Part shown: positions 9,633 through 44,272 of the stretch, one piece after another | How the letters are laid out: the number at the start of each line of letters is the position of its first letter | How positions within the stretch are numbered: the stretch's first letter is position 1 | Source: Asaia bogorensis | Lineage (GTDB): Bacteria; Pseudomonadota; Alphaproteobacteria; Acetobacterales; Acetobacteraceae | Direction: 5' to 3' | DNA length: 64,000 bases | Assembly (NCBI RefSeq): GCF_900465345.1 | Contig: NZ_UEGO01000038.1 | Span: forward strand, 62,001 to 126,000 | Program-made: the position numbers and the translations under genes | The notes under the pieces: model-generated | Told to the model about the DNA's origin: nothing | Database searches by the model: none | The model's input: only the letters and a program-made list of their open reading frames with translations

Positions 9633-11501
9633 TCAGGCTGTAGCAGCGCTCGTCAGCATGGCGGTCAGGCGCTGCGCGAAACCGGCGGCGTCTGGCAGGG
9701 TTTCGCCATCCTGAATACGGGCGACATCCAGCAGAACGCGGGCGAAATCGGCCACGCTCTCGCCTTTTTCCACTCGTGCTGCAAGATCACGGATGAGCGG
9801 GTGATGCGGGTTGATCTCCATGATGGGCGCTGCGGGGGGCATGCCCTGACCCGAGCGACGCATCAGGCGCTGCATCATCAGATCGGGACCACCTTCGCTC
9901 GTGATCACCACGGCGCTGCCAACCAGACGCACCGTGCCGCGCACATCCTTCACTTCCTCGCCAAGGGCTTCCTTGAGCGCAGGGATCAGTTTCTCAAGAT
10001 CCGCAGCCTCGCCTTCCGGCGTCGGGGCTTCGAACTTCTCAAGATCGCCGTGAGCCTGATTGATGGATTTCAGGGTCTTGTCTTCATAGGAAGACAGACG
10101 ATCGGGCCAGAAACCATCTACCTGATCGGAGAGCAGCAGCACTTCGATGCCACGGGCACGGAACCCTTCGAGCTGCGGCGAGGCAGCTAGCGCCTCGGCG
10201 TTTTCACCCGTCAGGTAGTAGATTGATTCCTGACCTGGCTTCATGCGCGTCAGATAGGCATCGAGCGTGGTCGGATCGTCAGACGCCGTGGAACGGAAGC
10301 GCGACAGGGCAGCGAGCTCCTGACGGTGCTCGGAATCCTCCCAGATACCTTCCTTGATGATCGGGCCGAAATTTTCCCAGAACGTGCCGAAGGATTCGGC
10401 ATTTTCCGTGTCCTTGGCGCGGTTCTTGATTTCGGTCATCACGCGCTTGGTCACGGCCTTGCGGATGCGCTGCAAGACGGGAGTCGATTGCAGCATTTCA
10501 CGAGAGACGTTCAGCGGCAGGTCTTCGGTATCGACAACGCCCTTCACGAAGCGCAGCCAGGCCGGCAGAAGCTCGGCCTCGTCGGTGATGAACATGCGGC
10601 GCACATGGAGATGCACCTTGCTCTCACGCGACTGCTCCATGAAGTCGAACGGGCGAGCACCGGGAATGAACAGCAATGCCGTAAATTCAGTCGTGCCTTC
10701 TGCGCTCCAGTGCAGGGTCGCATAAGGCTCGTCAAACTGGTGGGCAACGTGGCGGTAGAACTCGGTGTACTGCTCGGGCGTGATGTCGGATTTCGACTTG
10801 CGCCACAGGGCCGTGCCTTCATTGGCCGATTTGTCTTCCTCACCCTCGCGCAGCGTGATCGGCCATGAAATATGGTCGGCCCATTTGCGGATGATCGAGC
10901 GCAGGCGCCAGGCGTCGAGGAATTCATCAGCATCGGTTTTGACGTGCAGGATGATGTCTGTGCCGGGCTGTTCACGCATGGCTGGCGCAATGGTGTAGGC
11001 ACCCTTGCCATCAGACGACCACTGCCACGCCTGATCGGAGCCTGGCTGGCGCGAAATCACGTCCACCTTATCGGCCACCATGAAGGCGGCATAGAAGCCG
11101 ACGCCGAACTGGCCGATCAGGCTGGGGCGGTCTTCCGGCTTTGCGCTGTTCAGCTTCTCGCCAAAAGCGCGTGTGCCGGAGCGTGCGATCGTGCCGAGAT
11201 TGCTCGCCAGATCCTCACGGCTCATGCCTGCGCCATTATCGCTGATGGTCAGCAGGCGGGCATCCTTGTCGGGATGGATGCGAATGGCAGCGTCGGCCGG
11301 AAGGGCCTTGGCGGCATCAGTCAGCGCCTCGAAACGACGCTTGTCGGAAGCATCGGCGGCGTTGGCCACCAGCTCACGCAAAAAGATCTCGCGCTCGGAG
11401 TAAAGAGCATGAACCACGAGATCGAGCAGACGCCCGACTTCTGCGCTGAATTCATGCTTTTCGGCGCCCTGGACCTGATCTTTTTCGGTGTTTTCGGTCA
11501 T
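9633..11501 (-). CDS. htpG: Molecular chaperone HtpG (Hsp90)
   Basis: 622 residues, usual length. GHKL ATPase domain with Glu43 and Asn47 ([12 protein letters not shown]), DNGAGM (88-93) and GQFGVGFY (130-137), followed by the middle domain and a C-terminal dimerisation domain. The cytosolic protein remodels clients in an ATP-dependent way, often with DnaK. The start codon follows gagggatctcc. No heat-shock promoter was identified with confidence in the 76 bp upstream. Confidence 0.98.
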
Positions 11502-11577: not shown

Positions 11578-11976
11578 TCAAGAGAGGCTCGCATGGAGAG
11601 GCAGGACGTATTCACGCGTGAGGGGCGCCAGAATCAGGCCTCGTGCGTCCTCGGGGGTGACCCAGCGCGCCTCCTCGATCTCGGCGGCGATGATGACAGG
11701 GCCGGACCAGGGCAGGGCGAACAGATCGGCGCGTACGACATGGCCCGGCTCGTTGGCAGCCAGGGCTTCGATCTGCCTGATGAAGTGGCACGAACTTGCC
11801 TCTGGCTGGATACCCAACTCCTCGTCGATTTCGCGTAAAAGCGCGGCCAACGGGGTCTCGCCTGGCTCGATCTTGCCGCCTGGCTGCATGAAGGCCTGCG
11901 TACCCCGTTTGCGTACCAGCAAAAGACGGCCCGCCCCGTCATGCAACAGGGCGGCGGCGATGGTGATGACAGACAT
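11578..11976 (-). CDS. Nudix hydrolase
   Basis: 132 residues. Complete Nudix box: Gly34, Glu40, Arg48-Glu49, Glu52-Glu53, Gly55, consistent with Mg-dependent cleavage of a nucleoside diphosphate linked to another group. Substrate is not predictable. The gene starts 18 bp after the HAD phosphatase gene on the same strand, so they probably share a transcript; ribosome-binding site gggaaacaacc. Confidence 0.92.
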   Translation of the reverse strand: MSVITIAAALLHDGAGRLLLVRKRGTQAFMQPGGKIEPGETPLAALLREIDEELGIQPEASSCHFIRQIEALAANEPGHVVRADLFALPWSGPVIIAAEIEEARWVTPEDARGLILAPLTREYVLPLHASLS

Positions 11977-11994
11977 GGTTGTTTCCCGACTGTC

Positions 11995-12672
11995 TCAGCC
12001 GGCGTTGTCGCCCAGGATGGACAGGCGGCCATCGGGCAGACGATGGGCCTTGAGGGCCTCGTAACCCGGCACAGTGGGATGGGGTACATCCACCTCATGG
12101 GTATGAGTGGCTGTGATCACCACCACGCTGGCACCTGCGGCCTCGCCTGCCTTGATCCCGGCAGGGGCATCCTCGAATACAGCGCAGTCCTTGGCCTCGA
12201 AGCCCAGACGTTGCGCGCCGAGCAGGAAGCAGTCAGGGGCCGGTTTGCCATTGGGGGCGTCTTCAGCCGTGATCAGGATTTTCGGCAAAGGCAGTCCGGC
12301 AATCTCGATGCGTTTGAGCGCAAGCTCACGCGAGGCTGAGGTGACGATGGCCCAGCGATCGGCAGGCAGGCTGTTCAGAAACGCCGTGGCACCCGGAATG
12401 GGGTCGATGCCATGCGTATCTTCCAGCTCGCGACTGGTAATCCAGTGGGCTTCAGCGACCGGATCAACGCCCGGCAGTTTCTGGCGGCGTATGGTTTCGA
12501 CGGTCTGAACGCCATGAATGGTGGGAAGGAATTTCTCAACATCCAGACCGTGCTTCTGGGCCCAGAGGGTCCATACGCGCTCTGCCGCGATGATGGAGGT
12601 CAGGATTGTGCCATCCATGTCGAACAGGAAGGCGTCGAAGGCTTTACCGGGAAACAGATCGTGCGCGGCCAA
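11995..12672 (-). CDS. HAD phosphatase, glycerol-3-phosphatase (GPP)-like
   Basis: 225 residues with the HAD nucleophile motif DMDGT (Asp18, Asp20), TSA in motif II (IVTSASREL), the motif III lysine in NGKPAPDCF and the motif IV acidic pair in VFEDAPAGI. HGVQTVETI and VFEDAPAGIKAGEAAG match the yeast Gpp1/Gpp2 layout closely, so dephosphorylation of glycerol-3-phosphate or a related sugar phosphate is the best guess. The start is TTG, preceded by gatggagaactccc; the only other in-frame methionine early on lies inside the catalytic motif. The gene sits 94 bp downstream of a glycerophosphodiesterase, whose product would be its substrate. Confidence 0.85.
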   Translation of the reverse strand: MAAHDLFPGKAFDAFLFDMDGTILTSIIAAERVWTLWAQKHGLDVEKFLPTIHGVQTVETIRRQKLPGVDPVAEAHWITSRELEDTHGIDPIPGATAFLNSLPADRWAIVTSASRELALKRIEIAGLPLPKILITAEDAPNGKPAPDCFLLGAQRLGFEAKDCAVFEDAPAGIKAGEAAGASVVVITATHTHEVDVPHPTVPGYEALKAHRLPDGRLSILGDNAG

Positions 12673-12766
12673 GGGAGTTCTCCATCATGAGGGCAGGATA
12701 TACAGGGCGCAAACCCTGCATGACCTGTCCAACGCAGGCAAGTTTGCGCCGGATCAACTTATCGGC

Positions 12767-13879
12767 TCACCCCGCCGTATCGACTGCCAGTCGGCCAAGG
12801 GCCGGGTCATCCGTGAAGAACCCGTCCAGCCCCATATCGAGATAGCGCTTCACCTCGGCAATCATGCCTTGCGGGTTGCGGGCGTTCAGCGCGCCCCCAT
12901 CGCGCAGTTCCTTCGGCAGGAAATAGTTCTCAGGGCGCGCCGTGTAGGAATGAACCAGCAGCCCGGCTTCATGAGCGTCGGTGATCAACGAGGTGGGCGT
13001 ACCCCACGAGCCGTCCGGTTTGCGCGGGATCAGATCGGTGTTGGACGGGCCGATCACATCGGCAAAGCGGCGTATCTCGCGCAGGCCTTCGGGCTTCATG
13101 AAATCGCCAAAGCTTTTTGCATCGTTTTTGCCCAGAAGATCGGGCGGTGTCTGGTCAGGGCCACCCATCAGGAACATGACCCGCGCCTGCGGGTTGATGG
13201 CGCGCGTCTTTTCACCGATCGCTCGCAGATTGGCGGTTTCGAAAGACTGGAGTTCCAGAGGGGCCTGGCGGGTATATTCATGCGCTGCGATGGTGCGCAG
13301 GAACGTGGTTTCCGGATCCAGACCGAGGCTGTGGAAATGGGTGGAGTTCTTGATTTCGGGAATGAGCCCGTACACCTTGCCACGCGCGGCGGATTCACCG
13401 GCTACGAAATCGATCACTTCTTCAAAAGTCGGCACATCGAAATGCCCGTCATAGCGTGTGTTATGCGGGCGAAGCTGCGGCAGGCGCTCTTTCGCCCGCA
13501 GGGTCTTGAGCTCGGCGAGGGTGAAATCGGTGGTGAACCAACCGGTCTCTTTCTGTCCGTCAATGGTCAGGCTGCGCTTGCGGGCGGCAAATTCCGGGCG
13601 CGAGCCGACATCGGTGGTATCGGCAATATTGCTCTCATGGCGCACGATCAGCACGCCGTCTTTCGTCATGACCAGATCGGGTTCGATATAGTCGGCACCG
13701 TCTTCCATTGCCTTGGCGTAAGAGGCCAGCGTGTGCTCGGGCCGCAAGGCAGAAGCGCCACGATGGGAGAAGACGAGTGGCTTGGGCGCCAGAGACGGGG
13801 CCGCGAAGGAGCGCGAGGCGAGGGCCGGCGCACAGAATCCGGCGGCGCCAAGAGTGAGAGCGTGACGACGTGACAGCAA
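12767..13879 (-). CDS. glpQ: Glycerophosphodiester phosphodiesterase, exported
   Basis: 370 residues. Twin-arginine-like signal (SRRHALTLGA; cut near SFAA), then the GDPD TIM-barrel with HRGAS (His39, Arg40), YIEPDLV (Glu66, Asp68) and RHE (His81), the metal-binding and catalytic residues. The C-terminal DGFFTDDP motif is typical. It hydrolyses glycerophosphodiesters to glycerol-3-phosphate and an alcohol in the periplasm. The TTG start is supported by a strong aggaggttcgat. It lies 113 bp after a TonB receptor that has a Pho-box-like site, suggesting phosphate-starvation expression. The glpQ symbol is used for the periplasmic type. Confidence 0.93.
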   Translation of the reverse strand: MLSRRHALTLGAAGFCAPALASRSFAAPSLAPKPLVFSHRGASALRPEHTLASYAKAMEDGADYIEPDLVMTKDGVLIVRHESNIADTTDVGSRPEFAARKRSLTIDGQKETGWFTTDFTLAELKTLRAKERLPQLRPHNTRYDGHFDVPTFEEVIDFVAGESAARGKVYGLIPEIKNSTHFHSLGLDPETTFLRTIAAHEYTRQAPLELQSFETANLRAIGEKTRAINPQARVMFLMGGPDQTPPDLLGKNDAKSFGDFMKPEGLREIRRFADVIGPSNTDLIPRKPDGSWGTPTSLITDAHEAGLLVHSYTARPENYFLPKELRDGGALNARNPQGMIAEVKRYLDMGLDGFFTDDPALGRLAVDTAG

Positions 13880-13992
13880 ATCGAACCTCCTCAGGCCCGC
13901 TCCCGCAAGAGACAGGCGCGGGAGGAGGCATTTTGAAAGAAGGACGACGCGGCCCGGTTGATCGGGCGGCGCCGTTCCTGTGTCGGGCTATG

Positions 13993-16410
13993 TTACCAGT
14001 TGGCGCTCAGCGTCAGGAAATACATGCGCGGTGCAATGGGGTAGGCCGTGAACTGACCTGAAGTCTGCGTTGTGCTGACCGTGGACCAGCCACGCGTATT
14101 GGTCAGGTTGGTGATGTTTCCCTGAACGCGCAAGGCAGGAATATGGGGGATACCGTGAATGGTGTAGCCCGCATTCATGCTGAACTGTGCGGTCGGCGAG
14201 GCCCAGAGATCGTTGGTGTAGGTGGTGTAGCGCTTGCCCATGACATCGCCGATGAACTGGCCGTAGAAATTGCCCCAGTTCGTGGTGGCGACGAATTTCT
14301 CGGTCCAGTCCGGCTGACCCGCCACATTGCGGCCTGCAATGCGTATGGTGGACGTGCCGGAGTTGTAATTGTCGTTATAGACCGACTTGTTATAGCTCAG
14401 CCCGTTATAGATCGAGAAATGCGGGCCGAACTGTGCGGTGAAGGAGAAATCCATGCCATCCGTTGTGACCGAACCCACATTGGCGAGCGTCGTGGCCGAA
14501 CCGATGATGGAGGACAGGGATTGCGTGGTGGCAATGGCGACCAGACGGTTTGAGAAATGCACATGATAATATTCAGCCTGTGCCGAGATATCGGTCAGCG
14601 GGCCGAGATTGACATGGTGATGGGTACGCAGGCCGGTCTCATAGGTCCATGAGGTCTCGACCTTGCCGTTCTTCTTGAAATCCTCGAAGGCGGCCTGGCT
14701 TGTGGCACCCCAGGGGGTGGCATTGCCGTAACCGGCGCTCTGATAGGAACGCATGTTTTCCTGGATATTGGCGAACCACTGCTCGTTGGGCGTGATGTTC
14801 CACAGCGCACCGAAAGACGGCAGGAACGGCTTGACCGCGGCAATCGTGCCGCCCGGCACGGTCACGGCTGTTGCCGGTGAGAGCGATCCTGGCTTGCCAG
14901 CTACGGGCAGGGTGCCGTTTGTGTAGACCAGCTCGGATTTGAAGCCTGCCGAGAGGGTAAAGTTCTTCGTCACCTTCCAGCTGTCCTGCAGATGGGTAGT
15001 GAAGGTGTTGGTATAGAAATAGTTGGTGTACTGCTTGATCAGGGCATCCTGCTGGCGGTCATAAGGTGTGGTCGGGCTGTTTGCGTCCAGCGGATACCAG
15101 CGACGGGCCTGCGTGTTGTTGTTGCGCTCGTACCAGCCCCCGACCTCAAGGTCGTGATGGCCCAGCTTGTAGCGCAGCGTGGTGATCAGGCCGCCGCGAT
15201 TATCCCAGTATTCGGTCGTGCGTGTGGCATAGCCCGAGCCGCCGAACACGTTGCTGAGCTGGCTGGCGCTCTGGTTCGGGAAATAGGCGCTGAACAGCGT
15301 GGGCAGACCTGCGGCCGTGATCGGCCCCGCCACAACGCCCTCACCCAGATTGTGATGGTAATAGAGCTTGTTGTCCCAATGCAGGTTGGCATTGAAGTCG
15401 TGCTGCCAACCCAGATAGGTCAGAAAATCCTCGCGCTGGGCGGCGGAATAGTAATTGCGATAGTTCAGCCCGGCATTCTTGTAGGCAGCCGAATTCAGAT
15501 ATGATTTGGCGTAGTTGAAATCCGGATAGGTGAAGGGGCGCACATAGGTCCCATACCCATTGGGCAGCACGATGCCGTCTTCATTGGGTTCGACCTTGTC
15601 AGACCAGTCAAAGAAATAGGTAATCTTGTCCTTGCTTCCCTTGTGCACGAATTTCGCATTGACCTGATTGCCGCCCTGATGACCGGCAAAATCCCAGGCA
15701 CGGGCATCCTGCCGCGCCCATGAGATATAGGCCGAGTTGCCATTGCCGAAATTGCCGGTATCGAACCGGGCAAAGGTGCGGAAGGTCGAGAAGCTGCCGA
15801 AGGTCTGATCGAGCTGACCACCCATTTTCTGCTTCGGGTCGAGCGAGGAAAACAGCAGAGTTCCGCCCAGATTGGAGGTCGAGGCGGTGCCAAGCGCGCC
15901 AGAGCCGGTTGCGACCGTGGCGTTGCCCACGTTTTCACTGATTACGGCGCGCTGTGGCGACAGACCGTTATAGTTGCCATAGGCCTGATCACCCAGCGGG
16001 ATACCATCGAGCGTATAGCCGAGCTGGTTCTGGTTGAAGCCATGGATGAAAAGCGATGAGTTCTGTTCGTTATTGCCCCAGGGATCGGCGTTGTTGAACA
16101 CCACGCCCGGCAGAATCTGCAACGCCTTGAGCGGGCTCAGACCGGGCAGGATGCGTTGCAGCTGCGTATGGCCCACACTCTGCTCTGAACGCGTGCGACG
16201 CGCGGTTGCAATGACTTCTTCCGCCGGCGCGGTGGAGGTCAGGGCCTTTGCCTTACGCGAAGCGTTCTGGGCATGCAGCTGCGAGACGGGTGCTGTATTC
16301 TGATGAACGGGAAGCTTCGCATCTGCGGCGTGAGCGGTGGCGCTCAGCAGGGCGAGGGGAGAGCAGAAGAGAGACAGCGTAAGGGCATGGCGCTGCTTGC
16401 GAAGCTTCAT
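13993..16410 (-). CDS. TonB-dependent receptor, possibly phosphate-ester related
   Basis: 805 residues, outer membrane. Signal peptide cut after AHA (residue 28), a TonB-box-like AEEVIAT at about 63-69, a plug domain with SLFIHGFNQNQLGYTLDGIP and a barrel ending in LTLSANW. Receptors of this group are not classical siderophore receptors. The gene is followed by a glycerophosphodiesterase and preceded by a Pho-box-like sequence, so uptake of organophosphates is a reasonable hypothesis; iron complexes remain possible. No Fur-like site was seen upstream. Confidence 0.9.
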   Translation of the reverse strand: MKLRKQRHALTLSLFCSPLALLSATAHAADAKLPVHQNTAPVSQLHAQNASRKAKALTSTAPAEEVIATARRTRSEQSVGHTQLQRILPGLSPLKALQILPGVVFNNADPWGNNEQNSSLFIHGFNQNQLGYTLDGIPLGDQAYGNYNGLSPQRAVISENVGNATVATGSGALGTASTSNLGGTLLFSSLDPKQKMGGQLDQTFGSFSTFRTFARFDTGNFGNGNSAYISWARQDARAWDFAGHQGGNQVNAKFVHKGSKDKITYFFDWSDKVEPNEDGIVLPNGYGTYVRPFTYPDFNYAKSYLNSAAYKNAGLNYRNYYSAAQREDFLTYLGWQHDFNANLHWDNKLYYHHNLGEGVVAGPITAAGLPTLFSAYFPNQSASQLSNVFGGSGYATRTTEYWDNRGGLITTLRYKLGHHDLEVGGWYERNNNTQARRWYPLDANSPTTPYDRQQDALIKQYTNYFYTNTFTTHLQDSWKVTKNFTLSAGFKSELVYTNGTLPVAGKPGSLSPATAVTVPGGTIAAVKPFLPSFGALWNITPNEQWFANIQENMRSYQSAGYGNATPWGATSQAAFEDFKKNGKVETSWTYETGLRTHHHVNLGPLTDISAQAEYYHVHFSNRLVAIATTQSLSSIIGSATTLANVGSVTTDGMDFSFTAQFGPHFSIYNGLSYNKSVYNDNYNSGTSTIRIAGRNVAGQPDWTEKFVATTNWGNFYGQFIGDVMGKRYTTYTNDLWASPTAQFSMNAGYTIHGIPHIPALRVQGNITNLTNTRGWSTVSTTQTSGQFTAYPIAPRMYFLTLSANW

Positions 16411-16498
16411 CAGTAAACTTTCCTTTAAGACGGGCTCGAACGCGGCGCACCCTATTCGGAGAGTTCGTTACGGTGTGTGAAGCTTCGGTGATTTGGAT

Positions 16499-16516
16499 AT
16501 GACAGGGCTGTGACAC
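16499..16516 (-). promoter_or_regulatory. Putative Pho box before TonB receptor
   Basis: Minus-strand sequence GTGTCAC-AGCC-CTGTCAT: two 7-bp direct repeats, 11-bp period, matching the PhoB consensus CTGTCAT-N4-CTGTCAY at 6/7 and 7/7 positions. It ends 88 bp before the receptor start codon. Sequence-only call. Confidence 0.6.
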
Positions 16517-16540: not shown

Positions 16541-16571
16541 AAAAGGCCACCCTATGCAGGGTGGCCTCTTT
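16541..16571 (-). terminator. Rho-independent terminator of ompW
   Basis: 9-bp stem ggccaccct/agggtggcc with loop atgc; on the minus strand it is followed by a T-rich run. It lies about 35 bp after the ompW stop. Confidence 0.85.
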
Positions 16572-16599: not shown

Positions 16600-17412
16600 T
16601 CAGAAGCGGTATTCGATACCAGCTGCGACCGTGGTGGGGTCGAGCGAGTCATGGGCCTTGATGAAGGCGCCCGACCCACGGTCATTGGCCCAGGCATGCA
16701 TGCGCATGAACATCTGCTTGGCATCCATGTTGAAGAACCAGTTGCCAACCAGCTGATAGTCAAAGCCGACATTGACCGACGGGCCGCCCGTCACGCCAAC
16801 ATTGAGCTTCTGCACCAGGCCACCGGCGGGCGACACATTGTGGAACCATGCCAGTGTTGCACCGACGCCCACATAGGGGTTGAAGCGCTTGTGGGGACGG
16901 AAATGCCAGGCCAGCGTGATTGTGGGCGGAAGAGCCCAGGCGCTACCGACATCAATACCACCCAGCGGGGTGTCCTTGGCAGCCACTTCATGACGGGTGC
17001 TGGCGGCAATCAGGTCGATCGAGATATTATCCGTGAAGAAGTATTCGAACGTCAGTTCCGGCATGACCTGATTGGTGGTCTTGACGCGGCCTGGAATGGC
17101 GGCGCCATTGAGCCAGAGCTTGCTGTCACGATCCTGCGGAATGACGCCGAGGGCAGACAGGCGGATGATGAAGTCACCCTTGCCAAGGCCGATCTTGGTG
17201 CTGGAGCAGGTCTTGAACAGGCCGCATTCATCGCTGGAGGATGAGCGGGGCGCAGCAACGGCCTGAGCCTGGGGTGCGAGCACCATGTTCGTTGAAACTG
17301 GCGTGTTGACGACGGGGGTCGTCTGGGCCTGTGCGACGGGTGCTGCAACAGCGGCAACAAAACCGGTCAGAAGAGCGGTGGAAATCTTGAAAGAGGTCTT
17401 CATCAACGTCAT
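16600..17412 (-). CDS. ompW: OmpW-family outer membrane protein
   Basis: 270 residues. Signal peptide cut after AQA (residue 29), then a 40-residue spacer with DECGLFKTCSS and an eight-stranded OmpW barrel ending in GIEYRF. The motifs TFEYFFTDNISIDLIAA and NPYVGVGATLAWF are typical. OmpW forms a narrow hydrophobic channel and in enterobacteria responds to oxygen and redox state. A perfect FNR box lies 50 bp upstream, next to a divergent FNR gene. In-frame ATGs at 17412 and 17403 both exist; neither has a strong ribosome-binding site. Confidence 0.92.
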   Translation of the reverse strand: MTLMKTSFKISTALLTGFVAAVAAPVAQAQTTPVVNTPVSTNMVLAPQAQAVAAPRSSSSDECGLFKTCSSTKIGLGKGDFIIRLSALGVIPQDRDSKLWLNGAAIPGRVKTTNQVMPELTFEYFFTDNISIDLIAASTRHEVAAKDTPLGGIDVGSAWALPPTITLAWHFRPHKRFNPYVGVGATLAWFHNVSPAGGLVQKLNVGVTGGPSVNVGFDYQLVGNWFFNMDAKQMFMRMHAWANDRGSGAFIKAHDSLDPTTVAAGIEYRF

Positions 17413-38123: not shown

Positions 38124-40058
38124 ATGCCTGCCATTACCCTGCCCGATGGTTCCGTTCGCACGTTCGACGGTGCCACGACTGGCACGGCAGTCGCGGCTTC
38201 GATCGGTCCCGGTCTGGCGCGTGCTGCCGTTGCGATGAGCCTGAATGGCAAGCTGGTCGATCTCTCGACGGCCATTGCCGAGGATTCAGAGCTGCGCTTC
38301 ATTACGCGCAAGGACGATATCGTTCTGGAGATGATCCGCCATGATACCGCCCATGTGCTGGCCGAAGCCGTGCAGGCGCTTTGGCCCGGCACGCAGGTGA
38401 CGATTGGCCCTTCCATCAAGGACGGGTTCTATTACGATTTCTTCCGCAATCAGCCTTTCACACCCGAGGATTTCGAGGCGATCGAGGCCAAGATGCGCGA
38501 GATTATCGCGGCCAATGCGCCGTTCGAGCGTGAGGAATGGGATCGTGACGCCGCCATTGCCTTCTTCGAGGAGAAGGGTGAGCGCTTCAAGGCGGAGCTG
38601 ATCCGCGATCTGCCCGAGAGCGAGACCATCTCGATCTATCGCCAAGGGGCATGGCTCGATCTGTGCCGTGGGCCGCATATGCGTGGCACTGGCGATATCG
38701 GCACGGCGTTCAAGCTCATGAAGGTGGCAGGCGCGTATTGGCGCGGCGACCATCGTAACCCCATGCTGACGCGTATCTACGGCACGGCCTGGCGCGACCA
38801 GAAGGAACTCGACGCCTATCTGCATCAGCTAGAGGAAGCCGAGAAGCGTGACCATCGCCGTATCGGCCGCGAGATGGATCTGTTCCATATCCAGGAAGAA
38901 GCGGTGGGGCAGATTTTCTGGCACGCCAAGGGCTGGCGTCTGTACACCGTGCTTCAGGACTATATGCGTCGTATCCAGACGCGCTATGGCTATGAGGAAG
39001 TGCGTACGCCGCAGCTGGTGGACCGTGCCCTGTGGGAAGCCTCGGGCCATTGGGACAAATATCGCGAGCACATGTTCATCGCGACGGTTGAGGATGAGGA
39101 AAAGACCCTCGCCCTCAAGCCCATGAACTGCCCCTGCCATGTGCAGATCTTCCGCCATGGGCTGCGCTCCTATCGCGAGCTGCCGCTGCGTATGGCGGAG
39201 TTCGGCGCGTGTCATCGTTACGAGCCCTCGGGAGCGCTGCATGGCATCATGCGTGTCCGTGGCTTCACGCAGGACGATGCGCATATCTTCTGCACCGAGG
39301 AACAGATTGCAGCCGAGACGGCGACGTTCGTTGCCATGCTCGATGAGGTCTATCGCGATCTGGGCTTCGAGAATTTCCGCGTGAAGTTCTCCGACCGTCC
39401 TGATGCGCGTGCGGGTGACGACGCAACCTGGGACAAGTCGGAAAAGGCGCTCAAGGAAGCCTGTGCATTAGCGGGTGTGACATTCGAGACCAATCCGGGC
39501 GAAGGCGCCTTCTATGGCCCGAAACTCGAATTCGTGCTGACGGATGCGATCGGTCGCGACTGGCAGTGCGGCACGTTGCAGGTCGATTTCATCCTGCCCG
39601 AGCGTCTGGATGCTTCCTATATCGGTGAGGACAGCGCGCGCCATCGCCCGGTGATGCTGCATCGTGCCATTCTCGGTAGCTTCGAGCGCTTCATCGGTAT
39701 CCTGATCGAGCAGTTTGCCGGCAAGTTCCCGCTCTGGCTGGCCCCGACGCAGGTTGTGGTGGCAAGCATCGTGACGGATGCCGAGCCTTATGCGCAGGAC
39801 GTGGCTGCAAAGCTGCGCCGCGCCGGGCTTCAGGTTGAGGTGGACGGGCGCAACGAGAAGATCAACGCGAAGATCCGCGAGCATTCGCTTGCCCGTGTTC
39901 CTGTCATCCTCGTCGTGGGGCGCCGTGAGGCGGAAGAAGGCAAGGTGGCCATGCGTCGTCTGGGCGGCGCAGCACAGGAAATTCTGGGCCTTGAGGAAGT
40001 GGTCACACTTCTGGGCGAAGAAGCCAAGGCACCCGATATGCAACGCTTGCAGGGCTGA
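38124..40058 (+). CDS. thrS: Threonyl-tRNA synthetase
   Basis: 644 residues. TGS domain (1-60), editing/SAD domain, then the class II catalytic core with zinc ligand Cys in [10 protein letters not shown] (about 335), motif 2 [13 protein letters not shown] and a C-terminal anticodon-binding domain. Essential enzyme of translation. Full length, no anomalies. Confidence 0.98.
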
Positions 40059-40091
40059 AACGCAGCAGACAGACGCGAAAACCTTGCAATC

Positions 40092-40122
40092 CCGGTGCTT
40101 CGTGACTATGTCGGGGCACCGG
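40092..40122 (+). terminator. Hairpin between thrS and infC
   Basis: ccggtgc/gcaccgg 7-bp stem with a 17-nt loop, 33 bp after the thrS stop and without a T-run. It may attenuate read-through into infC. Confidence 0.4.
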
Positions 40123-40228
40123 CCTTCCCGCAAACAAGCCGTTAATTTCGTCACGCTAAGGTGATGAAATTTTTGGCCGGGTTGCGCGTATTGAAGTGCC
40201 GACAAGCACAAGATCTGAAAACGTCGAC

Positions 40229-40242
40229 AGGAGACGACCATA
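40229..40242 (+). promoter_or_regulatory. infC ribosome-binding site and AUA start
   Basis: aggag (40229-40233), 6-nt spacer, then ATA at 40240. No ribosome-binding site precedes the first ATG (40255). Confidence 0.7.
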
Positions 40243-40776
40243 GCTAGACCACCGATGCAGGCCGCACCCACCCGTGAAGGGCCCCGAGTTAACGAGGAAA
40301 TCCGCGTTCCTCAGGTGCGCTTGATTGACGCCGACGGCGAAATGGCTGGCGTCATGACAACGCGCGATGCTCTTGCACGCGCCTATTCGGTCGGACTCGA
40401 CCTTCTGGAAATCAGCCCGACGGCTGAGCCGCCGGTCGTCAAGATTCTCGACTACGGCAAGTTCAAATACGAACAGCAGAAGAAGAAGAACGAAGCGCGC
40501 AAAAAGCAGAAGGTCATCGAGATCAAGGAAGTCAAGGTGCGCCCCAGCACCAATGAAAATGACTACCAGGTGAAGCTGCGCGCCATGAATTCCTTCCTGG
40601 CTGAAGGCGACAAGGTCAAGGTTTCGCTGCGCTTCAAGGGGCGCGAAATGGCCCATCAGGAACTCGGCATCAAGATGCTTGAGCGCATCCGCACCGAGAT
40701 GGAAGACAAGGCCAAGGTTGAGCAGATGCCCAAGCTTGAGAACCGTCAGATGATCATGGTGCTCGCACCACGCTAA
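40240..40776 (+). CDS. infC: Translation initiation factor IF-3
   Basis: 178 residues if begun at ATA 40240 (173 from ATG 40255). The N-domain ([20 protein letters not shown]), linker helix [18 protein letters not shown] and C-domain ([27 protein letters not shown]) are typical. The Shine-Dalgarno sequence is placed for the ATA codon, and non-canonical starts in infC are a known conserved autoregulation device, since IF-3 rejects non-AUG starts. A terminator follows at 40807. IF-3 itself is certain; the ATA start is inferred. Confidence 0.95.
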
Positions 40777-40806
40777 GCAGATTCTCATCGAGAACATGTT
40801 TAAAAG

Positions 40807-40832
40807 ACCCCGGCTTGTCCGGGGTTTTTTTT
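40807..40832 (+). terminator. Rho-independent terminator of infC
   Basis: ccccgg-cttg-tccgggg stem followed by T8, about 30 bp after the infC stop. Confidence 0.9.
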
Positions 40833-41445
40833 ATCCCGCTTCCCTGGCTCCGGCCTCCCCTTTGAGGAGCAAGGTACAAGACGCATGGATGCCCCCTTCC
40901 GGGCCTGAACGCCCGCTATCCTTCTGTCATATGTTCTGTGCCCATACCTTGTGGGCGCCGTGCATCGACCCGAAGCGCGGTTGTGTCGCTCCAGTTCTCT
41001 TTCCGCTATGCGCAGGGAGTGCGATCTGGCCTGAGTCTCGTATCTGGCTGCGAGGATGCTCAGTAAAAATATTGGAAAGGACAGCATCTTTTCCTGCCCC
41101 TGCGGCAAGGGAGGAACCCATTTCATGGGTATATTGATAGTTGATAACGGCTCGAGATGCAGCTCTTAACGAAGTTTGACATCTGTAACAGTCAGATAGT
41201 GGAGGAATATGGGATTCTTCATTTTTTCTAGATTGGCGCACTAAGTCTTTATAGATAATTATAAAAGCGCAGACAGTAAACGCGGAATAATTCGTAGTTT
41301 CGTTCCCTTGCCGCGATGTATTTTAATATCACATTCTGGTGAGAAATTTGTCTGTGAATTAATGGAATTTAAATCTCCTGGGTGCAGACTGTAAAGCGCA
41401 CGGGGCGTAGAGTTTATTTAACGAAACAAGAGGGTCAAATTAACG
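40833..41445. other. A+T-richer intergenic region before RTX-like gene
   Basis: 613 bp with no supported gene. The right half (41140-41445) is clearly richer in A+T than its surroundings. It holds TTGACA at 41176-41181 without a well-spaced -10, an 11-codon frame with GGAGG at 41201-41205, and the leader of the large gene. Promoter(s) of that gene should lie here. Confidence 0.6.
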
Positions 41446-43839
41446 ATGGGTACGAATGATACTGATACGACAACCTATGTATACAGTAACCCTAGTGTAA
41501 GCGGCCCCAATCTGCCGATGAATACGCAGCAGGTCGTTAATGGGCAGATTATCTATAACAGTTCCATGTCTGAGCTCAGTGGCGAGCAATCCCCTGACTG
41601 GGCTATCATCCAATGGAATCAGGCGACGGCCTTTGATCCGCTCACTGGTGATGACACCCGCGTTTGGGACAGTAATTTCGGCTATTCTGTCGGGCATTGG
41701 ACGCAGGGCTCTGCGACATCTACAGCAGGCAAGACGAGCTACAACGTCTTCAAGGATCCGGATGACGGTCATTATATCTATCAGATGGCAGCTCAGGGCG
41801 GTCATCTGCTTGATGTTCAGCTCTCCGCAGTCAAGGCAGTTGATGGCCAGTACTCGTTCAACCATCAGATAACAGCGTCTCTCAAGCAGGGAATAAGCAA
41901 TTATTCTGGCACAACTGGTGTCTATCAGGCCGGGATGAACTTCACGATCAATTATCATGGGCCATCCATGAGTTTTGGTATATTTCTTCAATTTGAAACG
42001 ATTGATTACAAGGGGAAGCCACAAAGCTACGCTTCGATCACATCGACGATCGGTGGTTCTATTTATAACTTCACTGGTTCGCAGGCTGATTACATCAATC
42101 CTACTTTCGCCTCAAATAACGGCGTCATGTACCAGACGACCATCGACGTAAACCAGGGATTGATGGCTGCCATCAAGTCGATCGTTCGCCTCTACCCCAA
42201 TATGGCCAGCGATCTTGAGAACCTGAGTAACTGGTACCTGAGCGGTAGTTATATCGGAGTCGAGACGATTGGTACCGGCCAGGCGACGGATGTGACCGGT
42301 AATTACAACGTCGAAGATCCGCTCATCACCTACGATACCAGCAAGAACGTCACTTATGCAGATCGTTCAACCACGGCAAAGGTCGTTTCGATCGTACCAG
42401 AAGATAACGCGTCAACGCAGATAACCAGCGAGGTCTCCATGCCCAATCTTGTCGTCAAGGGTGTCAACAACACTGTCTATGTGCCCTATAGCTCCAGCGA
42501 CACGGCGGGCATGATGGCGAAAACCTATGCATCGAGCATCCAGACCATGCTCGCGGCAGGATCGCTTGATAACAGTATTCTCTCCACTGGCTCGAATGGC
42601 TATGTTTCTTCACAGAAGGCTTCGCAGGCCATTATCGACAGTGCCGGGACATACGGCGTATCGGGAAATTACACCCATATTGTTGTTGGATCGACTGACA
42701 GCAGCACACTGAATGGCAGTACGATACTTGATACGACACAGGATACTGCAAACTATATAAATATAGTTTCCGGCAACCAATATGGTTCCACCGTAAAGGT
42801 CGGTAACAGCTCGGGCAGTTTTGCGGGCACGCAGGGTAACAACGTCTTTAACGCTTCTGGATCCACGGGAAAGTGGAATATTGCGACTGGCGCAGGCAAT
42901 GATACGATATATGGCGCGCAAGGCACGAACACCATTACGGGGGGAACCGGGAACAACCTGATCTATCTCGGTGGATCGAACAACTTCGTAAATTCGGTGG
43001 GTCAGGATACGATCTACGGCGCAGCCGGGGCGATCGATACTGTCTCGCTGCAGGGGGGGAATTCGACGGCACTCCTCAAGACGAATGCCGCGGTTATGGA
43101 TTTCTCGAGCAACAACCGGATCACGGTGGCTGATAACAGCTCGGTTTACGGGGGTACTTCTTCCGTCGTGAATGTCAGCTCGGGCTCCGCAACCGTGACT
43201 GGCACCCAGGGCGACACAATCTCGGCCGTGGGCAATCTGCAGGTCGTGCATGGGAGTGACCAGACGATCAGTGTGGGAGGGGCACTCTCCTTTATCTCCG
43301 GTACCGGAAAAACTGCCATTTCAGCCGGGAGCGGGACGATCTATGGGGCTGACGGACTGACCGCAACACTGAGTTCCGCGTCACGCCTGCTTTTCACGGC
43401 AAACCAGCCCTATACGACCGGCGCCCAGAACATTGATGGGCGTAACGTTGCAGGTGGCCTTGCAGCCTGGACTGGTGCGGGACAGCAGACGGTGATTGGC
43501 GGCACGGCCTCCGACCAGTTCTATCTTGGTACGGCTTTCACCGGCTCCTCAGACACTGCGACTTCCGCCACGGTCACGGGCGGCTCCGGCGCCGGAAATC
43601 TTTTTGGTATGCTGAACAACCACACTGCTGGCACCTTCACCATTACAGACTTCCGGGCCGCTGCTAACAAGTTCTTCCTCTACAATTACAAGCCTTCTTC
43701 TGCCGATGCCGCCGCTCAGAGCATTTTGAATACGGCTACGGTATCGGGTGGAAATACGTCCGTCATGATCGACGGCAATGCCAAGGTAACCTTCCTCGGG
43801 GTTACTGATCTCAAGACCAGCGATTTCACCATCAGCTAA
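41446..43839 (+). CDS. Large RTX-like secreted protein, cysteine-free
   Basis: 797 residues, rich in Ser, Thr, Gly, Asn and Asp, with no cysteine seen and no N-terminal signal peptide. Residues 1 to about 330 look like a beta-rich globular domain (SFGIFLQFETIDY). RTX-like calcium-binding turns follow, e.g. GAGNDTIYGAQGTNTITGG around 481-500 and GGTASDQFYLG around 685. The last 60 residues (TITDFRAAANKFFLYNY..VTFLGVTDLKTSDF) resemble a C-terminal type I secretion signal. An adhesin, matrix protein or enzyme is possible; no catalytic motif was recognised. No cognate ABC exporter is encoded in the window. Base composition and the long flanks suggest an accessory gene. Confidence 0.75.
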   Translation: MGTNDTDTTTYVYSNPSVSGPNLPMNTQQVVNGQIIYNSSMSELSGEQSPDWAIIQWNQATAFDPLTGDDTRVWDSNFGYSVGHWTQGSATSTAGKTSYNVFKDPDDGHYIYQMAAQGGHLLDVQLSAVKAVDGQYSFNHQITASLKQGISNYSGTTGVYQAGMNFTINYHGPSMSFGIFLQFETIDYKGKPQSYASITSTIGGSIYNFTGSQADYINPTFASNNGVMYQTTIDVNQGLMAAIKSIVRLYPNMASDLENLSNWYLSGSYIGVETIGTGQATDVTGNYNVEDPLITYDTSKNVTYADRSTTAKVVSIVPEDNASTQITSEVSMPNLVVKGVNNTVYVPYSSSDTAGMMAKTYASSIQTMLAAGSLDNSILSTGSNGYVSSQKASQAIIDSAGTYGVSGNYTHIVVGSTDSSTLNGSTILDTTQDTANYINIVSGNQYGSTVKVGNSSGSFAGTQGNNVFNASGSTGKWNIATGAGNDTIYGAQGTNTITGGTGNNLIYLGGSNNFVNSVGQDTIYGAAGAIDTVSLQGGNSTALLKTNAAVMDFSSNNRITVADNSSVYGGTSSVVNVSSGSATVTGTQGDTISAVGNLQVVHGSDQTISVGGALSFISGTGKTAISAGSGTIYGADGLTATLSSASRLLFTANQPYTTGAQNIDGRNVAGGLAAWTGAGQQTVIGGTASDQFYLGTAFTGSSDTATSATVTGGSGAGNLFGMLNNHTAGTFTITDFRAAANKFFLYNYKPSSADAAAQSILNTATVSGGNTSVMIDGNAKVTFLGVTDLKTSDFTIS

Positions 43840-43842
43840 AAT

Positions 43843-43861
43843 CTTCCCCCTTGCGGGGGAG
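43843..43861 (+). terminator. Hairpin after RTX-like gene
   Basis: cttccccc-ttgc-gggggag, stem of 7 bp, immediately after the stop codon at 43839, no T-run. May instead be a REP-like palindrome. Confidence 0.45.
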
Positions 43862-44272
43862 TGTTGTGAGCGGGAAAACCTCTCCGAGGGGGACCCACAA
43901 GAGGGTGTTATCTCGAACTTCCCTGTGGGTGCCGCGCTTCTGAAGCGTGCCCAAGAGATCACCTGTTGAAGGGGCTGGTGTAGATGTATCCTCGCCGGCC
44001 GCTTTCCTGCGGGCGAGGCTGGCTGGCGTATCCCGCTGGTGTTGTTCGTAAAGCCGTATCATGAAACCATCGAGCATCCTCAGGGTGCGGATGCGGTGTC
44101 CAACGGTTCCAAAGCCATGACGTGCCTCCCGCTTCGGGAGCAATGGCTCTCTCGGGATGTGATCGTGCACTCTAATGGCGGCCTGGGGACATATCAGTGT
44201 CAGTCGCCTTGCGTCGGGGCGGGCTGAAGACCTGATGTGTCAAGGTCACCCTTGCGGTCATGTTTTGGGGGG
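43862..44272. other. Gene-poor strip beside tRNA-Ser
   Basis: About 410 bp. A minus-strand open frame (43832-44170) encodes low-complexity sequence with no recognisable family, and overlaps the RTX-like stop; I see no gene. The position at the 3' end of a tRNA gene is where integrative elements commonly insert, but no direct repeat of the tRNA end was found by eye. Confidence 0.5.

Follow-up and report, generated by a model that had tools for sequence, protein, structure and literature searches.

A conserved TonB-dependent receptor and glycerophosphodiesterase gene pair behind a putative PhoB operator in Asaia bogorensis: a candidate organophosphate scavenging module

Introduction

Systems that combine a TonB-dependent receptor with a phosphodiesterase have been reported in Flavobacterium, Caulobacter, and Xanthomonas. 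A pair of this kind was analysed in a stretch of 64,000 nucleotides from Asaia bogorensis (contig NZ_UEGO01000038.1, positions 62,001 to 126,000), and the whole of this stretch is called the window here. The pair consists of the genes for a TonB-dependent receptor and for an exported glycerophosphodiester phosphodiesterase (GDPD). Both genes are located behind an array that is proposed to be a PhoB operator (Table 1), and the pair would probably act as a two-gene module that scavenges organic phosphorus.

In Flavobacterium johnsoniae, the PusCD/PUSI system comprises a TonB-dependent transporter that is induced by low phosphate and encoded with predicted periplasmic phosphodiesterases (PMC8115612). 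In Caulobacter crescentus, PhoB controls glycerophosphodiesterases and TonB receptors that were proposed for alternative phosphate donors (PMC11208175). The XanT-XanP system of Xanthomonas consists of a TonB-dependent transporter and a phosphodiesterase on one transcript, and mutants showed that uptake of a phosphodiester depends on it (PMC12807533). The PUMA3 vreAIR locus of Pseudomonas aeruginosa carries PhoB-controlled genes for a receptor, an extracytoplasmic function (ECF) sigma factor, and an anti-sigma factor, where VreA is apparently periplasmic and is not an uptake receptor (PMC4971064).

The Asaia locus is similar to PusCD in having the genes of a TonB-dependent transporter and a phosphodiesterase together. 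However, PusCD is a SusC/SusD-type pair with a surface lipoprotein, whereas no SusD-like surface lipoprotein gene lies beside the Asaia receptor, whose neighbours in the window are the OmpW and GDPD genes and which is accompanied by one GDPD and a Pho array. In Caulobacter, both TonB receptors and GDPDs are under the control of PhoB, as is proposed here; the available part of that report does not mention an adjacent receptor-GDPD pair. XanT-XanP likewise joins a TonB-dependent transporter to a partner phosphodiesterase, but XanP is a 2H phosphoesterase and not a GDPD, the substrate is a sugar phosphodiester made by an effector, and the cluster includes a gene for a ROK-type regulator. The periplasmic GlpQ of Escherichia coli (1ydy) shares the GDPD family and export with the Asaia enzyme, which differs in falling below the GlpQ cut-off, in its Tat-like (twin-arginine translocation) signal, and in having an outer membrane receptor as partner. 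PUMA3 is similar only to a sister clade of the receptor, which has receptor, ECF sigma, and anti-sigma genes and putative PhoB control; the sister receptors of Gluconobacter differ from VreA in their length of about 890 residues, their plug domain, and their position beside PhoD.

The Asaia pair is thus a further case of a known kind, given the reports from Flavobacterium and Caulobacter and on XanT-XanP. No report of this Acetobacteraceae pair was found in searches of an open-licence library, and the available parts of PMC12405394, PMC6667682, PMC2996285, and PMC12502724 contain nothing decisive on it. Bioleaching mutants of Gluconobacter oxydans include those of phoB and of a TonB receptor, GO_19 (PMC12041372).

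Results

Conservation of the receptor-GDPD pair

The locus was compared across 80 of 421 confirmed relatives, and 79 of these loci carry sufficient downstream DNA. The GDPD gene lies at most 900 bp after the receptor gene in 53 of the 79 loci overall and in 50 of the 60 core loci. The locus L069 also has a GDPD gene, which overlaps the end of the receptor gene and was left out of the counts. The conserved unit is the receptor and the GDPD, and it stands behind a conserved Pho-type array, which supports this part of a sequence-only reading of the window. A further genome search found the pair adjacent in 5/5 loci, of which three (L016, L023, and L064) are already in the 80-locus set and two are new. 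In L242, which lies outside the class, a GDPD gene (50% identity) is directly 3' of the receptor gene and a Pho-like site of 16.7 bits lies 69 bp 5' of the receptor open reading frame (ORF). In L237, a divergent GDPD gene is located immediately upstream of the receptor gene. The locus L236, which is within the family and is the same locus as L071, has the receptor followed by GDPD, with a gene for a 5'-nucleotidase-type enzyme near.

The nearest named relatives of the receptor are from Asaia species, at 91-99% identity, and from Swaminathania, at 90%. Close homologues are rare: they were found in 6 of 385 genomes of the class (E <= 1e-150) and in 5 of 398 genomes in the search across the phylum (E <= 1e-120), the query genome being included in both counts.

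Characteristics of the receptor and the GDPD

The receptor matches two Pfam domains over their cut-offs, the barrel of TonB receptors with 3e-26 and the plug with 8.8e-8. It has no NCBIfam match at E <= 0.001, so the family is without an NCBIfam name. No receptor was matched when its sequence was compared by phmmer with the solved structures in PDB, and its profile gave two weak receptor matches, one of which is an enantio-pyochelin receptor. An AlphaFold model was obtained from 31 sequences (the window and the comparison set), with a predicted local distance difference test (pLDDT) score of 69 and a predicted template modelling (pTM) score of 0.71. Foldseek aligned this model with many solved TonB receptors, where the best was PqqU (9c4o, TMq 0.65), followed mostly by siderophore receptors. 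The TonB-receptor fold is thus supported by the model. To our knowledge, few TonB receptors have had a phosphorus substrate shown experimentally.

The GDPD matches PF03009 with 7.5e-44 and 151.1 bits (cut-off 23.6), and it is the sole match to this domain in the whole genome. Its alignment with E. coli GlpQ spans 300 residues (5e-32, 114.6 bits), and its score of 154.7 is below the cut-off of 254 for the NCBIfam GlpQ equivalog (PRK11143). A twin-arginine-type motif, [ST]RRxx[LMFI], is present near the N-terminus in all 47 orthologous GDPD ORFs. The HR...ExD...H motif is present in 46 of the 47, and the exception (L013) is a shortened ORF.

The upstream array

The sequence-only reading had called a PhoB box with 6/7 and 7/7 matches at the 18-mer that forms units 1 and 2 of the array. 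Against CTGTCAT the counts are 5/7 and 7/7, and the called values are reached when either C or T is accepted at the final position. By itself, the 18-mer is modest evidence because the pattern CTGTCAY-N4-CTGTCAY with up to one mismatch has 10 sites in the whole genome compared to 2 for the reversed control pattern. Those 10 sites are of mixed context, and the definition of a regulon by this strict-consensus search was dropped.

The half-sites of PhoB repeat with a period of 11 bp. Four TCA triplets at 11-bp spacing occur once when both strands of the window are counted, with a minus-strand start at 16513, whereas none of 100 first-order Markov resamples contains them; the triplet and spacing were chosen post hoc from the sequence, and a four-unit TCA array at 9-bp spacing also occurs once in the window. 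The TCA of unit 3 and TTCACACAC of unit 4 are identical in 8/8 aligned promoters of Asaia and Swaminathania. The array recurs 5' of orthologous receptors in other genera, and in Gluconobacter it is near consensus: CTGTCATAATT CTGTCATTACA CGTTCACAGGA GCTTCACACGC. Conservation in relatives, the lack of which the sequence-only reading had named as a refutation, is therefore found for the array, of which the called box is the less conserved half.

A matrix of 14 Gluconobacter and Brytella promoters scores the window site at 25.2 bits and the next site in the window at -13.8 bits, where 14 of the 20 loci tried fitted the pattern and the training set is orthologous to the tested promoter. Among the 59 core promoters, 33 have a TCAC exactly 22 bp ahead of TAG[GAT][GT]T (TAGKKT), and the spacing in the window is identical. 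No other spacing within the allowed range of 15-30 was seen in the core promoters. The genera with the 22-bp spacing are Asaia, Swaminathania, Gluconobacter, Acidomonas, Brytella, and Neokomagataea, along with one Acetobacter.

Comparison with pstC promoters

A second matrix was constructed from 10 pstC promoters because the training set of the first was orthologous to the receptor promoters. Scored with it and set against 717 control upstreams, which belong to the remaining ORFs of these loci, 37 of the 58 core receptor promoters lie higher than the 99th percentile and 45 higher than the 95th. Because the loci are related to one another, the p-value of the rank test on these scores cannot be read as a real probability. 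Three core loci were left out of this scoring: L021 and L049 are without upstream DNA, and L068 has a broken start. The matrix favours Pho genes, since the top 25 of the 717 controls include eight PhoD and two PstC genes (58-62% identical to Asaia PstC). Distant and sister receptors have low scores at their own start codons. Scanning the window with this matrix alone did not single out the array.

The genome encodes a PhoB over the TIGR02154 cut-off (298.6 compared to 296.2). The best match of the adjoining kinase is PhoR, below the cut-off (256.2 compared to 334.2). PstS, PstC, and PhoU are each over at least one cut-off. A matching site, CTTTCATAAAACTATCAT, is found at pstS2, and no Pho-type site was seen at pstS1.

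Two observations were made in the course of this comparison. In Gluconacetobacter entanii (L039:133-1155) and Novacetimonas maltaceti (L048:148-1179), the distance between pstC and the receptor gene is about 7 kb, and pstC has a high-scoring Pho-like site. Elsewhere in the query genome (L162:2732-4594; G000:C36 near 131.5 kb), a gene for a 584-aa outer-membrane-type protein is preceded at about 65 bp by the Pho-like repeats TTGTCATCGAACTGTCATATGGGAGTCATC. This protein has no Pfam match (E <= 0.001) and no NCBIfam match (E <= 1e-20), and its homologues are present in 34 of 80 genomes of the family, its own genome included. It is a candidate phosphate-regulated porin.

Sister receptor clade

A sister clade from Gluconobacter (L072-L085) shows 51-54% identity to the receptor. 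PhoD is beside the receptor in 14/14 loci, FecI in 13, and FecR in 11, with the domains checked by Pfam on L072 and L074. These receptors have an N-terminal extension. In L074:4286-10307, for example, the PhoD gene is divergent from those of FecI, FecR, and the receptor. The gap between PhoD and FecI contains TTCATGAAACTGTCAC in 13 of the 14 loci, and the Pho-like site there precedes FecI. In Acetobacter garciniae (L088:6585-12899), the genes of FecR, a sister receptor, and phospholipase C lie in a row. The PhoD/FecI/FecR locus may possibly perform PhoB-controlled cell-surface signalling for organic phosphorus.

Locus layout and neighbouring genes

The features of the locus are listed in Table 1. 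The order on the minus strand is OmpW, a terminator-like hairpin, the proposed Pho array, receptor, GDPD, HAD, Nudix, and HSP90. The receptor, GDPD, HAD, and Nudix genes, which the sequence-only reading had placed on one strand, are all found on the minus strand with Pfam matches.

Table 1. Features of the receptor-GDPD locus in the window, arranged in the order of transcription.
Feature	Position	Strand	Remarks
OmpW gene	16600-17412	minus	First in the order of transcription in this part of the window
Terminator-like hairpin and T run	16544-16567	minus	Between OmpW and the array; the hairpin scan lists the plus strand only
Four 11-bp TCA half-sites, proposed PhoB operator	16473-16516	minus	GTGTCACAGCC CTGTCATATCC AAATCACCGAA GCTTCACACAC
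Array units 1 and 2	16499-16516	minus	Called Pho box, 18-mer GTGTCACAGCCCTGTCAT; less conserved half
Array units 3 and 4	16473-16494	minus	Constant part of the aligned promoters
-10-like TAGGGT	16449-16454	minus	22 bp past the TCAC of unit 4
TonB-dependent receptor, 805 aa	13993-16410	minus	Predicted plug and barrel; PF00593/PF07715
GlpQ-like GDPD, exported, 370 aa	12767-13879	minus	TTG start behind AGGAGG; PF03009
Two adjacent RNA hairpins	12694-12753	minus	Between GDPD and HAD; form kept in Asaia; no good T run
HAD-IA phosphatase	11995-12672	minus	Apparent resident neighbour, probably outside the module
MutT-like Nudix hydrolase	11578-11976	minus	Pfam NUDIX
HSP90 gene	9633-11501	minus	After Nudix in the order of transcription

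The Pfam matches are HAD hydrolase (2.6e-21) and NUDIX (4.4e-17). The best solved match of the HAD protein is yeast Gpp1, a glycerol-3-phosphatase (90 bits); no NCBIfam equivalog is over the cut-off, and the best of them, the sugar phosphatase PRK11587, is below it. Within the 80-locus set, the pair is followed by HAD and Nudix in Asaia and Swaminathania alone (eight loci). HAD is found at E <= 1e-40 in 11 of 80 genomes of the family, and four of these have it next to GDPD; besides Asaia and Swaminathania, two genera (G030 and G033) show this position. In L249, from the same genome (G111) as the Brytella locus L023, HAD directly follows OmpW, and the receptor and GDPD are on another contig. 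In L251 (G078), HAD is beside HSP90, and the receptor and GDPD are about 0.6 Mb distant. The simplest history would be that, in the lineage of Asaia, the receptor-GDPD cassette came to separate OmpW from HAD. The hairpins between GDPD and HAD are strong in the Asaia and Swaminathania loci, with z-scores of -2.8 in the window and -5.4 and -3.3 in two relatives, computed for 3 of 9 sequences. These hairpins are possibly a transcript end or a stabiliser.

Elsewhere in the window, a repetitive protein of 797 aa is encoded at 41446-43839, within the stretch of lowest GC content (51-54%, 40001-44000).

Discussion

The pair probably scavenges organic phosphorus because a receptor and a phosphodiesterase sit together behind a Pho-like switch, and we assign a probability of about 0.62 to a two-gene PhoB-regulated module of organophosphate scavenging. 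Under low phosphate, phospho-PhoB would bind the four half-sites upstream of the -10-like element and would drive transcription of the receptor gene and, by read-through, of the GDPD gene. The receptor, powered by TonB, would then move phosphodiesters across the outer membrane. The likeliest cargo would be deacylated phospholipid headgroups such as glycerophosphocholine, glycerophosphoethanolamine, glycerophosphoglycerol, and glycerophosphoinositol. In the periplasm, the GDPD, whose signal motif suggests export by Tat, would convert the phosphodiester into glycerol-3-phosphate and an alcohol. Phosphate would subsequently enter through a periplasmic phosphatase and PstSCAB, or glycerol-3-phosphate would enter by some carrier. 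Judged from the conserved sequences, regulation by PhoB is likely, and the pair very probably belongs to the Pho regulon. It is moderately probable that the receptor imports a phosphodiester or another organophosphate, and import of glycerophosphodiesters specifically is given slightly less than an even chance.

Several findings weigh against this module. The comparisons of sequence and fold (profile and Foldseek) point to no substrate of the receptor. Adjacent GDPD genes are absent from 10 core loci of Komagataeibacter, Novacetimonas, Gluconacetobacter, and one metagenome-assembled genome. Outside the family, GDPD is present at only 2 of 5 evaluable homologues (L242 and L237, and not L238, L239, and L243), L232 being too short for evaluation, and no strong Pho-like site was found at the receptor in L237, L238, L239, and L243. 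The -10 string in the form given above is missing in 26 of 59 promoters. Selection of the 10 pstC sites from 30 fetched upstreams was made by eye when the receptor array was already known, and the remaining 20 upstreams show no comparable site. On the pstC matrix, the window site reaches 9.1 bits, short of the 95th percentile, and is the 14th-ranked site of the window; the 18-mer of the sequence-only reading scores 4.5 bits and ranks 107; and 5 of 7 scored Asaia and Swaminathania promoters are below the 95th percentile, L068 being the eighth promoter of this group. Since the window site scores weakly on this matrix, the Asaia site has drifted, and the case rests on the relatives.

The substrate of the receptor and the enzyme beside it need not match, because the sister receptors adjoin PhoD or phospholipase C and not GDPD, and because the 10 core receptors named above have no adjoining GDPD. 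The pair could therefore be regulated by PhoB while the receptor imports another phosphorus compound (a sugar phosphodiester, a nucleotide, a phosphonate, or a metal-phosphate or phytate complex) and the GDPD serves independently, for example in the remodelling of the cell's own lipids. XanT imports a sugar phosphodiester (PMC12807533), and the PhoB targets of Caulobacter include glycerophosphodiesterases tied to phospholipid degradation (PMC11208175), which are both in line with this explanation. However, the receptor and GDPD are paired in two gene orders and also outside the class, which suggests a common substrate, and we regard the explanation as unlikely but deserving of attention. A receptor for iron, haem, or a cofactor such as pyrroloquinoline quinone (PQQ), under another OmpR-type regulator and next to GDPD by chance, is highly unlikely. 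FecI and FecR, which are typical of iron systems, adjoin the sister clade, the top Foldseek matches are PqqU and siderophore receptors, and the profile weakly matches an enantio-pyochelin receptor. However, the promoter motif is common to pstC, the genes next to receptors of this family encode phosphoesterases in several arrangements, and phmmer matched no solved receptor.

We give hardly any credence to the four-gene pathway of the sequence-only reading, in which the receptor, GDPD, a cytosolic glycerol-3-phosphatase (HAD), and Nudix would act in sequence. The same strand and tight spacing in Asaia and Swaminathania, the HAD genes that adjoin GDPD in two further genera, and the match to Gpp1 are consistent with it. 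However, HAD is found beside OmpW or HSP90 in genomes where GDPD is on another contig or far away, hairpins separate GDPD from HAD, and the best NCBIfam match of HAD is a sugar phosphatase below the cut-off. Since HAD and Nudix appear to be genes resident at the site, a pathway of four genes is not supported: HAD adjoins GDPD in only 4 of 11 genomes and, among the 80 compared loci, Nudix accompanies the pair in Asaia and Swaminathania only. No GlpT-family protein is over the cut-off in the genome (best 154.8 compared to 407.75), and other carriers of glycerol-3-phosphate were not sought; release of phosphate in the periplasm with uptake by PstSCAB is for this reason at least as likely as dephosphorylation by HAD in the cytosol.

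Conclusions

The preferred reading remains a PhoB-regulated module of the receptor and GDPD. What is less ordinary is a receptor family that is accompanied by three kinds of phosphoesterase. We tentatively suggest, at a little short of even odds, that this family is a dedicated proteobacterial importer of organophosphates, which under PhoB control is combined with phosphoesterases that are interchangeable. In one clade the partner would be GDPD, and in the sister clade it would be PhoD or phospholipase C, together with ECF sigma and anti-sigma factors through which the receptor, once loaded, would signal organic phosphorus at the cell surface. As a practical caution, neighbours on the same strand, such as HAD and Nudix here, may not belong to a pathway. 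In acetic acid bacteria, the pair offers a test case that is small and simple in its genetics, and Gluconobacter among them has the near-consensus four-unit Pho array. If the module is true, it would account for acetic acid bacteria living on lipid headgroups under phosphate shortage.

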